Source: Prolixibacteraceae bacterium
GTDB taxonomy: Bacteria > Bacteroidota > Bacteroidia > Bacteroidales > Prolixibacteraceae
Direction: 5' to 3'
NCBI GenBank assembly: GCA_028683385.1
Contig: JAQUIJ010000008.1
Location: forward strand, 1-64,000
Length of the DNA: 64,000 nt
Shown here: positions 6,121-8,835 of the stretch, one piece after another
Numbering within the stretch: position 1 is the stretch's first letter
Layout of the letters: every line of letters starts with the position of its first letter
Notes under the pieces: model-generated
What the model saw: only the letters and a program-made list of their open reading frames with translations
Databases searched by the model: none
Told to the model about the DNA's origin: nothing
Made by a program: the position numbers and the translations under genes

Positions 6121-7140
6121 CTAACTTTTGTTGGCTAACGCTTTTACGTTTGCCCAAATACCATCGTCAACAGGAATACCCAATTCCATATTTTCTTGCC
6201 GTGTTTTTAGCGATTGTTCACCCGGATAAAATATTTCACCGTTTTCATCAGCAGGAACCGACGATTTGAGTTGTTCGATGGTTTCTTGCAATGCCTGATC
6301 GATGAATTCCTGTGTGTTAATTTTCCTAGGGTCTATTGCAATAAAAATCTGGCAACAGCTTCCGCAACTTCCTTTGCCTGCTTTATCAATTCCGGCAGTG
6401 GTGAGTCCTCCTGAAAGTAATGCTGAAATCAGGTCGAGCATAACGGCAAATCCTGAACCTTTCCAGAATCCCATTGGTAAAATCCGTCGGGTTTCCTCAA
6501 TTTCGCCGGGATTGTCGGTGAGCTTTCCTTCCTGATCAAATCCGCCGGGGTAAGGGAGTTTTTGATCTTTTAGGCGGGTTGTTTGCAGCTTTCCATACGA
6601 ATATTGCGACATGGCCATATCGAGCACAACATGCCCTTCTTTTCGCGGTACAGCCATGATAAATGGGTTGTTTCCAATTCCGCACGATTTTGCACCCCAG
6701 GCCGGCATGCACGATTCAGTATTGGTCCAGCAAATGCCAATAAATCCTTTTTCGGCAGCCTGCCATCCATAAGCACCACCGCGCATCCAGTGAGTAGTAT
6801 TGTTAAGACTTACCATGCCCAATCCGTTCTGTGCTGCAATTTCGGTTGCCCGATTCATTGCAAACAGGGCATTTAAAATTCCGGGACCAAGGTTGCCATT
6901 GTAGATTTCCATCGAACCGAGATTCAACTCCAGCGTTGGTACAGCATTCCCATCGACCCAGCCTTTCCCCAAATAATCGACAAACCGTTCAACGCGGTTC
7001 AGTCCATGAGAATAAACACCATCTCTGCTCGATTCGGTATGAATCTGGGCACAAGCATCAGCTTTGTCTTCGGGCATTCCGGCGTTCATAAAAGCTGACT
7101 TTATGGTGGCTTTCATTTCGTCAAATGGGATTCGTGTCAT
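6121..7140 (-). CDS. dlgD: 2,3-diketo-L-gulonate reductase / 3-dehydro-L-gulonate dehydrogenase (YiaK/DlgD type)
   Basis: 339 aa NAD(P)H-dependent oxidoreductase of the malate/L-lactate dehydrogenase (LDH2) family. Long stretches match what I know of the E. coli YiaK subgroup: GVYSHGLNR with the proposed catalytic His45, THWMRGGAYGWQAAEKGFIGICWTN, PAWGAK, IGNNPF and DMAMSQYSYGKL. YiaK reduces 2,3-diketo-L-gulonate in L-ascorbate/pentose breakdown. No partner genes of that pathway are adjacent. The gene lies 79 bases downstream of the aminotransferase on the same strand, so it may be read through from the attenuator-controlled transcript. The exact substrate in this organism is inference. Confidence 0.85.
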   Translation of the reverse strand: MTRIPFDEMKATIKSAFMNAGMPEDKADACAQIHTESSRDGVYSHGLNRVERFVDYLGKGWVDGNAVPTLELNLGSMEIYNGNLGPGILNALFAMNRATEIAAQNGLGMVSLNNTTHWMRGGAYGWQAAEKGFIGICWTNTESCMPAWGAKSCGIGNNPFIMAVPRKEGHVVLDMAMSQYSYGKLQTTRLKDQKLPYPGGFDQEGKLTDNPGEIEETRRILPMGFWKGSGFAVMLDLISALLSGGLTTAGIDKAGKGSCGSCCQIFIAIDPRKINTQEFIDQALQETIEQLKSSVPADENGEIFYPGEQSLKTRQENMELGIPVDDGIWANVKALANKS

Positions 7141-7219: not shown

Positions 7220-8443
7220 TTAGCCAGCCATTGATGCACGAATCGAGGTTTTTTTATGTGCCTTTTTTATAATTGTTCCCAACCGTTTAATGCCTTCTTC
7301 AATCATTTCTTCTGACGAATTGGAATAGTTTAGGCGCATGTTTCGTTGTCCTTCATCGGCAGTAAAGAATGATTTTCCGGGGACAAAAACTACTTTTTCC
7401 TGAATCGCTTTTTGGATGAGCGCTTCGGAGTTCATCGATTCAGGTAGTGTTGCCCAAATGAACATTCCTCCTTCAGGATTGGTGTAGCTAATTTCCTCCG
7501 GGAAATGCTTCCTGATCGACTCAATCATACAATCTTTCTGAGCTTTGTAAGCTAATCTGACTTTACAAAGGTGATCTTCCAGATTATTGTCGGTCAGGAA
7601 ACGATAAATGATTCGTTGAACTACATTGTTGGTGTGCAAATCGGTGGCTTGTTTGATGCGTAGCAAATACGGCATCAGTTCTTTGGGAACGCAAATCCAA
7701 CCGGTTCGAAGTCCGGGCGAAATCATTTTCGAGAATGATCCGCACCAAATGGTGTGATCAGGATTTAAGGCAAAAACGGGAGCCTGAAATTTACCTTCGA
7801 AACGGATTTCTCCATACGGATCGTCTTCCACAAACAGGATGTTGTGCCAGTCGAGCAGGATGGCCAGATTCTCACGGGTTTCTGCCGAATACGTAATTCC
7901 TGTCGGGTTCTGGAAATTCGGGATGCCGTAAAGTACCTGCGACTCGGTTTTCAGGATCGTATCTTCCAGTTCGTTCAGATCCAGACCATCTGAATTTAAG
8001 GTGATTTGGTGAAATTCGGGACGGTAGGCCGAAAATGCCTGTATGGCTCCCAGGTAGGATGGTTTTTCCATCATCAGCGGATCGCCCGGATTGATAAGCA
8101 ATTTGCCAATAAGGTCGAGCGCTTGCTGCGAACCATTGGTGATCAGGATGTTTTCAGGAGAAATTGATAGACCGTACTTACTGTTGTATCGGTCGCAGAT
8201 CCATTGCCTAAGCGGCAGATAACCTTGACTTCCGGCATACTGAAGCGTTTCGGCTCCTTCGTTTTCCATAATCTGGATAAAGGCCTGTTTCATTTGTTCA
8301 GCCGGGAAACAGGTTGGATTTGGCAGTCCGCCTGCAAACGAAATCATGTCGGGCTGTTCACATACAGCAAGTATTTCGCGGACAAACGAAGTAGGAATGT
8401 TTTTGCAATTTTTTGAGATCAGACTTTTGTAATTTACTTCCAT
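7220..8443 (-). CDS. PLP-dependent aminotransferase, LysN/ARO8-like (fold type I)
   Basis: 407 aa cytosolic aminotransferase. The PLP-binding lysine is Lys239 in SFSKMISPGLRTGW; upstream are ITNGSQQALD, GIPNFQNPTG and DDPYGEIRF, all typical of the MocR-type/2-aminoadipate aminotransferase group. LysN-type enzymes accept 2-aminoadipate, leucine and aromatic amino acids. The 5' region of this gene carries two Ile/Val/Leu-rich leader ORFs, each with its own terminator (8474-8745). That points to control by charged branched-chain tRNA and suggests the enzyme works on branched-chain amino or keto acids. The dlgD gene follows without an obvious terminator. The class is secure; the substrate is inference. 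Confidence 0.9.
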   Translation of the reverse strand: MEVNYKSLISKNCKNIPTSFVREILAVCEQPDMISFAGGLPNPTCFPAEQMKQAFIQIMENEGAETLQYAGSQGYLPLRQWICDRYNSKYGLSISPENILITNGSQQALDLIGKLLINPGDPLMMEKPSYLGAIQAFSAYRPEFHQITLNSDGLDLNELEDTILKTESQVLYGIPNFQNPTGITYSAETRENLAILLDWHNILFVEDDPYGEIRFEGKFQAPVFALNPDHTIWCGSFSKMISPGLRTGWICVPKELMPYLLRIKQATDLHTNNVVQRIIYRFLTDNNLEDHLCKVRLAYKAQKDCMIESIRKHFPEEISYTNPEGGMFIWATLPESMNSEALIQKAIQEKVVFVPGKSFFTADEGQRNMRLNYSNSSEEMIEEGIKRLGTIIKKAHKKTSIRASMAG

Positions 8444-8473: not shown

Positions 8474-8510
8474 AAAAAAAAGCCTTTCCCATGGATATAG
8501 GGAAAGGCTT
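8474..8510 (-). terminator. Attenuator terminator 2 (leader 2, nearest the aminotransferase)
   Basis: On the minus strand an 11-bp perfect stem (AAGCCTTTCCC with GGGAAAGGCTT, 8480-8510) with a nine-base loop runs into eight T residues. It ends 30 bases before the aminotransferase ATG, so transcription must pass it. Its left arm plus loop (TTTCCCTAT) is exactly complementary to the antiterminator strand at 8531-8539. Confidence 0.85.
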
Positions 8511-8530
8511 TATATCGTTTCTGGCAATAG

Positions 8531-8539
8531 TTTCCCTAT
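8531..8539 (-). promoter_or_regulatory. Antiterminator strand of attenuator 2, overlapping the leader 2 stop codon
   Basis: Minus-strand ATAGGGAAA contains the TAG stop of leader 2 and pairs 9/9 with TTTCCCTAT of terminator 2 (8497-8505). A ribosome that reaches the stop codon would cover it, releasing the terminator; a ribosome stalled earlier would leave it free. Just before it a GTGAAC-GA-GTTCAC palindrome (8540-8553) could form a competing hairpin. Confidence 0.65.
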
Positions 8540-8592
8540 GTGAACTCGTTCACGAAAATGACCACTACCGCTAGAATAAAAAGCTTGTTCAT
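8536..8592 (-). CDS. Leader peptide 2 (18 aa, Val/Ile/Leu-rich)
   Basis: An ATG at 8592 opens an 18-codon frame ending in TAG at 8536: MNKLFILAVVVIFVNEFT. Its core holds a run of three valines and an isoleucine, with Leu, Ile and another Val nearby; eight of 18 residues are branched-chain. The frame begins 15 bases after terminator 1 and stops inside the antiterminator strand of terminator 2, the geometry of a transcription-attenuation leader. It is too short for composition statistics, so reality rests on this geometry and on the parallel design of leader 1. Phenylalanine (three residues) is a less likely control residue. Confidence 0.7.
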   Translation of the reverse strand: MNKLFILAVVVIFVNEFT

Positions 8593-8607
8593 ACTCAATT
8601 GATTCAA

Positions 8608-8642
8608 ATAAAAAAGCCACTCCCTTTTTGAGGGAATGGCTT
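8608..8642 (-). terminator. Attenuator terminator 1 (leader 1)
   Basis: On the minus strand a 12-bp stem (AAGCCATTCCCT with AGGGAGTGGCTT, one T-G wobble, 8614-8642), five-base loop, then a T run. It lies 26 bases beyond the leader 1 stop. The left arm GCCATTCCCTC is complementary at 10 of 11 positions to a strand at the end of leader 1 (8672-8682). Confidence 0.82.
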
Positions 8643-8667
8643 AAATAATCGGATTATATATTGTCGT

Positions 8668-8745
8668 TTATGCCATACCCTCCTTGCCCGAAACCACGAA
8701 TGTGGCCACGATTGCGACTAGGATATGGATAAATTGTTTCTTCAT
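8668..8745 (-). CDS. Leader peptide 1 (25 aa, Ile/Val/Leu-rich)
   Basis: An ATG at 8745 opens 25 codons ending in TAA at 8668. The peptide starts MKKQFIH, continues ILVAIVATFVV and ends SGKEGMA. Eight of 25 residues are Ile, Val or Leu, concentrated in residues 6-18, which resembles ilv-operon leaders. The last codons form the antiterminator strand for terminator 1. The frame could be mistaken for a truncated signal peptide, but the stop, the terminator 26 bases on and a second similar unit directly downstream argue for an attenuator leader. It lies 90 bases after the GH43 stop, so the GH43 transcript may also read into it. Confidence 0.7.
   Translation of the reverse strand: MKKQFIHILVAIVATFVVSGKEGMA
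8672..8682 (-). promoter_or_regulatory. Antiterminator strand of attenuator 1, inside the last codons of leader 1
   Basis: Minus-strand GAGGGTATGGC covers the leader codons for Glu-Gly-Met and part of Ala and pairs with GCCATTCCCTC at 8630-8640 with a single T-T mismatch. A ribosome finishing leader 1 would occlude it and let terminator 1 form. Confidence 0.6.
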
Positions 8746-8835
8746 AATTGTAAGCAAAGGAAAAAATTATTTCCGAATTAAAAACGGTTGCTGTTTTGCT
8801 GTTTTTTATCGTTGATGATTTGGTAACATTTCGAA

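Follow-up and report, generated by a model that had tools for sequence, protein, structure and literature searches.

Two predicted ribosome-mediated attenuators in series before an aminotransferase gene of Prolixibacteraceae

Introduction

In the 64-kb stretch of Prolixibacteraceae DNA analyzed here (the window), an aminotransferase gene is preceded by two short hydrophobic ORFs, each followed by a hairpin with a T-run. This raises the question of whether the leader holds two attenuators and, if so, what a pair in series could do before a single gene. Classical attenuators combine a leader ORF carrying product codons, alternative pairings, an intrinsic terminator and a geometry that separates a stalled ribosome from one at the stop codon. 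Ribosome-mediated attenuators of E. coli and Salmonella control trp, his, leu, thr, ilvGMEDA, ilvBN and pheA, as set out in part of a published account (PMC1183508), and leader-peptide attenuation has been suggested from transcriptomes in Bacteroidota, according to sections of two other papers (PMC9723704, PMC7366714). Comparison of the locus with its relatives makes it very likely that the leader transcript carries two ribosome-mediated transcription attenuators of the classical kind, one after the other, before an aminotransferase of the branched-chain amino acid (BCAA) regulon.

Layout of the locus

A first-pass annotation had placed two leader ORFs, two T-run terminators and an aminotransferase ATG on the minus strand, and all of these parts are present. 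Read from the sequence, positions 8745-8474 (minus strand) contain two full units of leader ORF, antiterminator and terminator, followed by the aminotransferase gene; the order is leader ORF 1, terminator 1, leader ORF 2, terminator 2 and the aminotransferase ATG at 8443. The features are as follows.

8755..8762, minus strand: putative -7 promoter element TTCCTTTG, presumed from the consensus; relatives also have a TTTG near the leader 1 ATG
8668..8745, minus strand: leader ORF 1, peptide MKKQFIHILVAIVATFVVSGKEGMA, 25 codons plus stop; kept in 22 of 22 family loci and in the 23rd (L189)
8721..8730, minus strand: unit 1 region 1, protector arm ATCCATATCC, inside leader 1; pairs with region 2
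8672..8683, minus strand: unit 1 region 2, antiterminator left arm GGAGGGTATGGC; conserved, with 0 independent compensatory changes
8606..8642, minus strand: terminator 1; region 3 at 8640-8630, region 4 at 8624-8616, T-run
8536..8592, minus strand: leader ORF 2, peptide MNKLFILAVVVIFVNEFT, 18 codons plus stop; kept in 22 of 22 family loci
8548..8557, minus strand: unit 2 region 1, protector arm TTTCGTGAAC; 84.2% of cells paired
8531..8545, minus strand: unit 2 region 2, antiterminator left arm GTTCACATAGGGAAA, including the leader 2 stop; compensatory changes
8474..8510, minus strand: terminator 2; region 3 with the antiterminator right arm at 8505-8497, region 4 at 8490-8480, T-run
7220..8443, minus strand: regulated gene, class I/II PLP aminotransferase of 407 aa (P0001), Pfam PF00155

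The pairings proposed between leader ends and terminator arms are likewise there: the end of leader 1 (within 8683-8672) pairs with 8640-8630 at 10 of 11 positions, and ATAGGGAAA, nine bases with the leader 2 TAG among them, pairs with TTTCCCTAT at 8505-8497 at 9 of 9. By sequence, an intrinsic terminator stands between leader ORF and gene in both units. When both strands of the 64-kb window were scanned for a short hydrophobic ORF with hairpin and T-run (ATG ORFs of 12-45 codons, a run of at least 9 residues of ILVAFMT, hairpin plus T-run within 130 nt), exactly two matches were obtained, both of them these leaders, under criteria that had been fixed after the two units were seen. No Rfam family, T-box RF00230 included, matched the window at gathering score.

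A TTTG that may be the -7 element of the Bacteroidota promoter consensus precedes the ATG of leader 1 by 5-11 nt in 16 of 22 relatives, the window among them; in the window, the TTTG of TTCCTTTG ends 9 nt before that ATG. If this is the -7 element, leader 1 would be almost leaderless, with a very short 5' UTR or none.

On the same strand, leader 1 is preceded by a GH43 gene, whose end lies 90 nt before it, and an Ldh_2-family dehydrogenase gene (6121-7140, minus strand) follows the aminotransferase. Among 13 family loci (L002 and 12 others, about 1.5 kb downstream), the Ldh_2 gene is found after the aminotransferase only in the window and L003. A neighbor gene as operon clue was rejected, because no downstream gene is common to the 13 loci checked.

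Conservation in the family

An aminotransferase orthologue (E <= 1e-110) is encoded in 23 of 140 Prolixibacteraceae genomes. At all 22 family loci whose upstream sequence reaches far enough, both units precede the gene; in G130, the 23rd genome, unit 2 lies at the start of one contig and unit 1 (L189) at the edge of another. Both units are therefore present in 23 of 23 orthologue-bearing genomes, in G130 on separate contigs. A covariance model of unit 2 (R1) produced 23 strong matches of 73-110 bits, exactly at the 23 aminotransferase loci, the next match scoring 40, and a model of unit 1 (R2) had its 23 top places at 83-111 bits, the next at 60. R1 and R2 were trained on these same loci, and their scores thus speak for specificity rather than independent discovery; unit 1 of G130 was absent from the R2 training set. 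In a tree of 38 sequences, including 11 of 19 order-level loci, the 23 family enzymes form one clade with support of 0.999. Its deepest split separates the window's trio from the other 20, and both units occur on either side.

Several loci were set aside: L016 from the unit 1 alignment, fold model and leader statistics (contig end), L004-L006 as paralogues, L028, L029 and L032 as the same loci as L003, L007 and L009, and L189 from the statistics. Given the family-wide conservation of both units, we regard a chance origin as untenable; since relatives across the family keep both, the doubled design looks real and selected. The L027 aminotransferase (G127) matches the orthologue with one in-frame TAA, yet both leader units are present there.

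Leader frames and codons

The peptide sequences of the leaders vary among relatives, with composition kept. Leader 1 of the aminotransferase contains 19.3% Ile, 19.0% Ala, 13.0% Val and 7.9% Leu (22 leaders), and leader 2 contains 16.1% Ile, 14.8% Ala, 14.2% Val and 8.8% Leu (22 leaders). The leaders had been described as Ile/Val/Leu-rich; across the family they are also rich in Ala, about as much as in Ile, although in the window's own clade (L002, L003, L007) Ala codons are few and Val is dominant. The codons suggest that what is read is how much valine, isoleucine, leucine and alanine is available.

Leader 1 runs through region 2 in four of the 22 loci, the window's included, and elsewhere stops before or at its edge. 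Leader 2 of L009 and L020 has an extra stretch between the common KYA near its start and the hydrophobic core, giving 42 and 38 codons, respectively, with the frame kept in both. These in-frame insertions and the conserved open frames are indirect signs that the leaders may be translated. The leader 2 insertions resemble small repeats (two genomes; records L056 and L057, complement).

Alternative pairings and fold model

Alignment with orthologous loci had been proposed as a check on the first-pass reading of ribosome-stalling attenuation, and it bears that reading out: both leaders are kept in 22 of 22, the alternative pairings are conserved, and 11 compensatory changes fall in the unit 2 antiterminator. 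In this 2:3 pairing, the leader end pairs with the left arm of the terminator in register family-wide (83.3% of cells paired), and in eight of the 15 pairs both partners have changed. Cells changed on both sides number 30, versus 9.9 in shuffled alignments; the covariation score is 0.300, versus 0.196 shuffled (reached in 0 of 500 shuffles), and slid versions give at most 0.124. By parsimony on the enzyme tree, the 11 double changes are independent, versus 0-2 in six slid controls.

The unit 1 antiterminator is mostly invariant, with 0 independent double changes, and does not stand clearly above shuffles, 33 of 500 reaching its score and 79 of 500 its fraction of paired cells. Such invariance is expected, though it is no proof, of a region 2 that has to take part in both the 1:2 and the 2:3 pairing. 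An antiterminator formed from the ORF end and exclusive with the terminator is thus backed in unit 2 by covariation and in unit 1 by conservation alone.

The protector pairing 1:2 of unit 1 is formed in 82.3% of cells and has 2 independent double changes, with 9 cells changed on both sides versus 3.8 shuffled; the unit 1 terminator (3:4) has 5 independent double changes. The protector pairing of unit 2 is formed in 84.2% of cells, its covariation score showing no excess over shuffles (91 of 500). Self-pairing was also compared with permutations that swap energies between species, relatedness being uncorrected. It exceeded all 5000 permutations for 1:2, 2:3 and 3:4 of unit 1 and for 2:3 and 3:4 of unit 2; for 1:2 of unit 2, 74 of 5000 permutations were as strong. 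The protector pairing would accordingly count as well supported in unit 1 and weakly supported in unit 2. With it, the anatomy would be that of a classical 1:2:3:4 attenuator.

To model the ribosome, 22 + 22 units were folded with the bases under it masked, the stall site being placed, independent of codon, as far downstream as keeps region 2 free. With the polymerase just past region 3 and the ribosome stalled upstream, mean P(2:3) was 0.72 in unit 1 and 0.63 in unit 2. With the ribosome at the stop codon it was 0.05 and 0.00, and with no ribosome 0.06 and 0.12, respectively. Without a ribosome, P(2:3) was at least 0.5 in one of 22 copies of unit 1, the window's own (0.55), and in four of 22 copies of unit 2 (L003, L011, L018, L019). 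Once region 4 is present, the terminator is the preferred equilibrium fold of all 22 copies of unit 1 and of 17 of 22 copies of unit 2, even when the ribosome is stalled. The switch must therefore act during transcription, antitermination being kinetic.

Attenuators before leuA and ilvD

Second-tier family matches, mainly of the unit 1 model R2, lead to attenuators before leuA and ilvD. The 39 places hand-picked among the matches listed (36 from R2, 3 from R1) comprise 18 at leuA, 15 at ilvD (L167 cut short) and six unrelated ones; leuA and ilvD were identified from the translated start, and one of each was confirmed with NCBIfam. In the window's genome, one unit stands before leuA (C32) and one before ilvD (C23). 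Single units are the arrangement at 19 of 19 leuA loci and at 14 of 17 ilvD loci (of the 17, L190 comes from a different family; L166 starts where its contig does); two units occur at three ilvD loci, in G127, G130 and G131, all of one genus (g21). The arrangement had been called unusual, a description that holds for the doubling, which recurs at ilvD in that one genus, but not for attenuation itself, to which leuA and ilvD are likewise subject in the same genomes.

The leuA leaders contain 24.8% Leu, 22.8% Ile, 0.7% Val and 1.2% Ala (18 leaders), and the ilvD leaders 18.5% Ile, 16.7% Leu, 17.8% Val and 3.9% Ala (20 leaders from 17 loci); L151, where the script detected no ATG ORF, was left out of these statistics. 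Composition thus appears to differ between leuA, ilvD and the aminotransferase in the expected way, in line with pathway. The same attenuator grammar before leuA and ilvD in these genomes points to the aminotransferase as a further member of a BCAA attenuation regulon.

Beyond the family

An order-level search found the orthologue in 23 of 295 genomes, the window's own included. Recognizable units are absent at 17 of the 19 order-level orthologue loci of other families that we looked at; one of the 19 is tandem (L212) and one has a single unit with an I/V/A-rich leader (L209). L212, from family f140 and with 46% identity, has two units whose leaders are both Ala/Leu-rich and whose leader-terminator pairings are short, about 6 pairs each. 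It falls outside the family clade, in a tree whose deep nodes are weakly supported, and its doubling would therefore be either old or independent. A TACATTTG box stands 7 nt before the first ATG of L212.

A phylum-wide search with R2 gave 14 places in 10 of 395 genomes: the two of the window's genome, one ilvD, four aspartokinase and seven that resemble plain terminators. The aspartokinase genes, identified by the start of their translation, belong to two further Bacteroidota families and are preceded by Ile/Thr-rich leaders with a terminator (L191, L192, L198, L194; match 1501 onward); these may be thr-type attenuators.

A T-box (RF00230) precedes the aminotransferase orthologue in Clostridium oryzae (L033:2616-2890) and in a MAG labeled Bacilli (L030:2649-2900). 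The specifier stretch of the former, GAAGGTAGCC, shares its ten bases with the valS (L065) and ilvB (L073) T-boxes of the same genome. Its specifier codon is GUA (valine), as is that of L030. The rule used (GAA, a gap of 0-2 bases, the codon, then a purine) fits eight of eight C. oryzae T-boxes (valS twice, ilvB, pheS, alaS, ileS, thrS, hisS), whose genes were named by best NCBIfam match, two that are cut by the locus end being below cut-off. The same aminotransferase gene is thus seen under two different tRNA-charging sensors, T-box and leader attenuator.

Identity of the enzyme

The best solved relatives of P0001 are aminotransferases that are uncharacterized or act on multiple substrates, two Pyrococcus-type homologues among them, with alpha-aminoadipate aminotransferase next. 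As for LysN / 2-aminoadipate transaminase, P0001 is related in sequence to 2egy (E 2e-87), with three other chains scoring higher, and it reaches no NCBIfam cut-off among the 25 listed of 66 families. The E. coli-type AvtA sequence family was rejected (NF006967, 125 bits versus a cut-off of 402; NF006964, 113 versus 467). E. coli AvtA is a valine-pyruvate transaminase and one of three major alanine transaminases, as a portion of PMC4094517 describes, and P0001 may work like AvtA while standing outside its sequence family. A role as replacement for IlvE was also rejected, because IlvE (TIGR01123) is above cut-off in 22 of 23 tandem genomes (the exception, G011, is 91% complete); P0001 would therefore be an additional transaminase. 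The codons of the leaders, together with the valine T-box before the Clostridium orthologue, lead us to predict an alanine/valine (branched-chain) aminotransferase rather than LysN. The first-pass label of LysN-like is thus retained as a statement of sequence homology only, whereas regulation points to a branched-chain/alanine transaminase.

Discussion

In the mechanism we propose, RNA polymerase would start just upstream of leader 1. Smooth translation of the Ile/Val/Leu/Ala codons would bring the ribosome to the stop codon, where it covers region 2, so that 3:4 pairs and transcription terminates. When charged tRNA is short, an upstream stall would cover region 1, and the free region 2 would pair with region 3, letting the polymerase continue; without translation, 1:2 pairing would lead to termination. 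Because the polymerase would have to pass both terminators, the serial duplication is probably a double lock, in which basal expression would be lower and the responses of the two units should multiply.

The likeness to the attenuators of E. coli and Salmonella extends to product-codon leader, alternative pairings, intrinsic terminator and stall/stop geometry. The present leader differs in its two units in series, its occurrence in Bacteroidota, its alanine codons and its probably near-leaderless first ORF. The leuA and ilvD attenuators of the family share the same grammar and differ in being mostly single units, without alanine enrichment. The T-box resembles the leader attenuator in its tRNA-charging signal and, in C. 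oryzae (L033) and the L030 genome, in its place before the same gene; a T-box has no leader ORF, and here leader ORFs are present. Salmonella mgtCBR, as described in sections of PMC3641672, has tandem attenuators that respond to different signals (ATP and proline) through stem-loops unlike intrinsic terminators. The two leaders share with it the presence of two leader ORFs in one leader RNA and control of transcription; assignment to the mgtCBR type was rejected, since both units here have intrinsic terminators and similar codons. In mefA/msrD, by the account in part of PMC10314930, two ribosome-stalling macrolide attenuators form a "double-lock" that msrD transcription must pass; mefAL governs mefA and msrD, msrDL only msrD, and both sense the drug. 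Here, in contrast, both units precede one gene, and tRNA charging would be what is sensed. The class of mechanism is classical; new to us are the conserved serial duplication, the fact that it recurs and the alanine component. Among the open-licence PMC papers listed in our searches, we met no description of a single gene with two complete amino-acid attenuators in front of it, whether in Bacteroidota or in other organisms.

Two similar leaders need not read the same signal. A near-leaderless unit 1 and an internally initiated unit 2 could respond to different amino acids, or to how translation initiation fares, and so form an AND gate like that of mgtCBR, which sections of PMC3641672 offer as a two-signal precedent, and the spacing of leader 1 from the TTTG (5-11 nt at 16 of 22 loci) and the position of leader 2 after terminator 1 would suit such a gate. 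Both leaders are nearly equal in composition family-wide (Ile, Ala, Val), however, and the shared Ala/Leu richness of the L212 leaders argues for one common signal; we consider different signals unlikely. It is also conceivable, if quite improbable, that one unit functions, the other being a duplicate that is neutral or in decay. The absence of covariation in the unit 1 antiterminator fits this, as does the fact that most ilvD and leuA loci looked at work with one unit. But both units persist in 23 of 23 genomes across the deepest split of the clade, both leaders remain open with biased codons, and the 1:2 and 3:4 pairings of unit 1 exceed permutation.

Nascent-peptide arrest of the TnaC, SpeFL or macrolide-leader type, in which a hydrophobic peptide stalls the ribosome on binding a ligand, would also call for short hydrophobic peptides, such as the MsrDL described in a section of PMC10314930. 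Yet here the peptide sequences vary while composition is kept, and composition shifts from one regulated pathway to the next (leuA, ilvD), as expected if tRNA is sensed, which makes arrest very improbable. Last, the hydrophobic ORFs could be chance ORFs or small membrane proteins, and the hairpins the terminator of the upstream operon plus a second terminator; with the end of GH43 90 nt upstream on the same strand, terminator 1 could indeed serve GH43 in the window. That account is scarcely credible, as the units remain with the aminotransferase across the family, the same grammar recurs before leuA and ilvD, and plain terminators give no reason for the 2:3 covariation.

We therefore keep to two amino-acid attenuators acting in series. 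Taken further, we lean, with some reserve, toward serial attenuators as a selected Bacteroidales design: an Ala/branched-chain double lock, ancestral in one family, that has arisen more than once and gives a multiplicative response. The case for more than one origin cites ilvD in genus g21 and, perhaps, the orthologue in family f140. If true, a serial double lock would give a multiplicative response beyond the reach of a single attenuator. Stacked switches of the same logic offer a natural test of lower leak versus steeper response versus two inputs, and the comparison is built in: within one family, units are double at the aminotransferase and mostly single at leuA and ilvD. The loci also present a compact BCAA attenuation regulon in Bacteroidota, and a case in which leader codons are used to predict the substrate of an enzyme.

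A TATTGC-like stretch, CTATTGCC, lies at 8530-8523 (minus strand), downstream of the unit 2 antiterminator arm. It is kept in most rows of the unit 2 alignment A2 (at about columns 65-71), where we noticed no pairing partner for it, and could be a polymerase pause site that synchronizes ribosome and polymerase.
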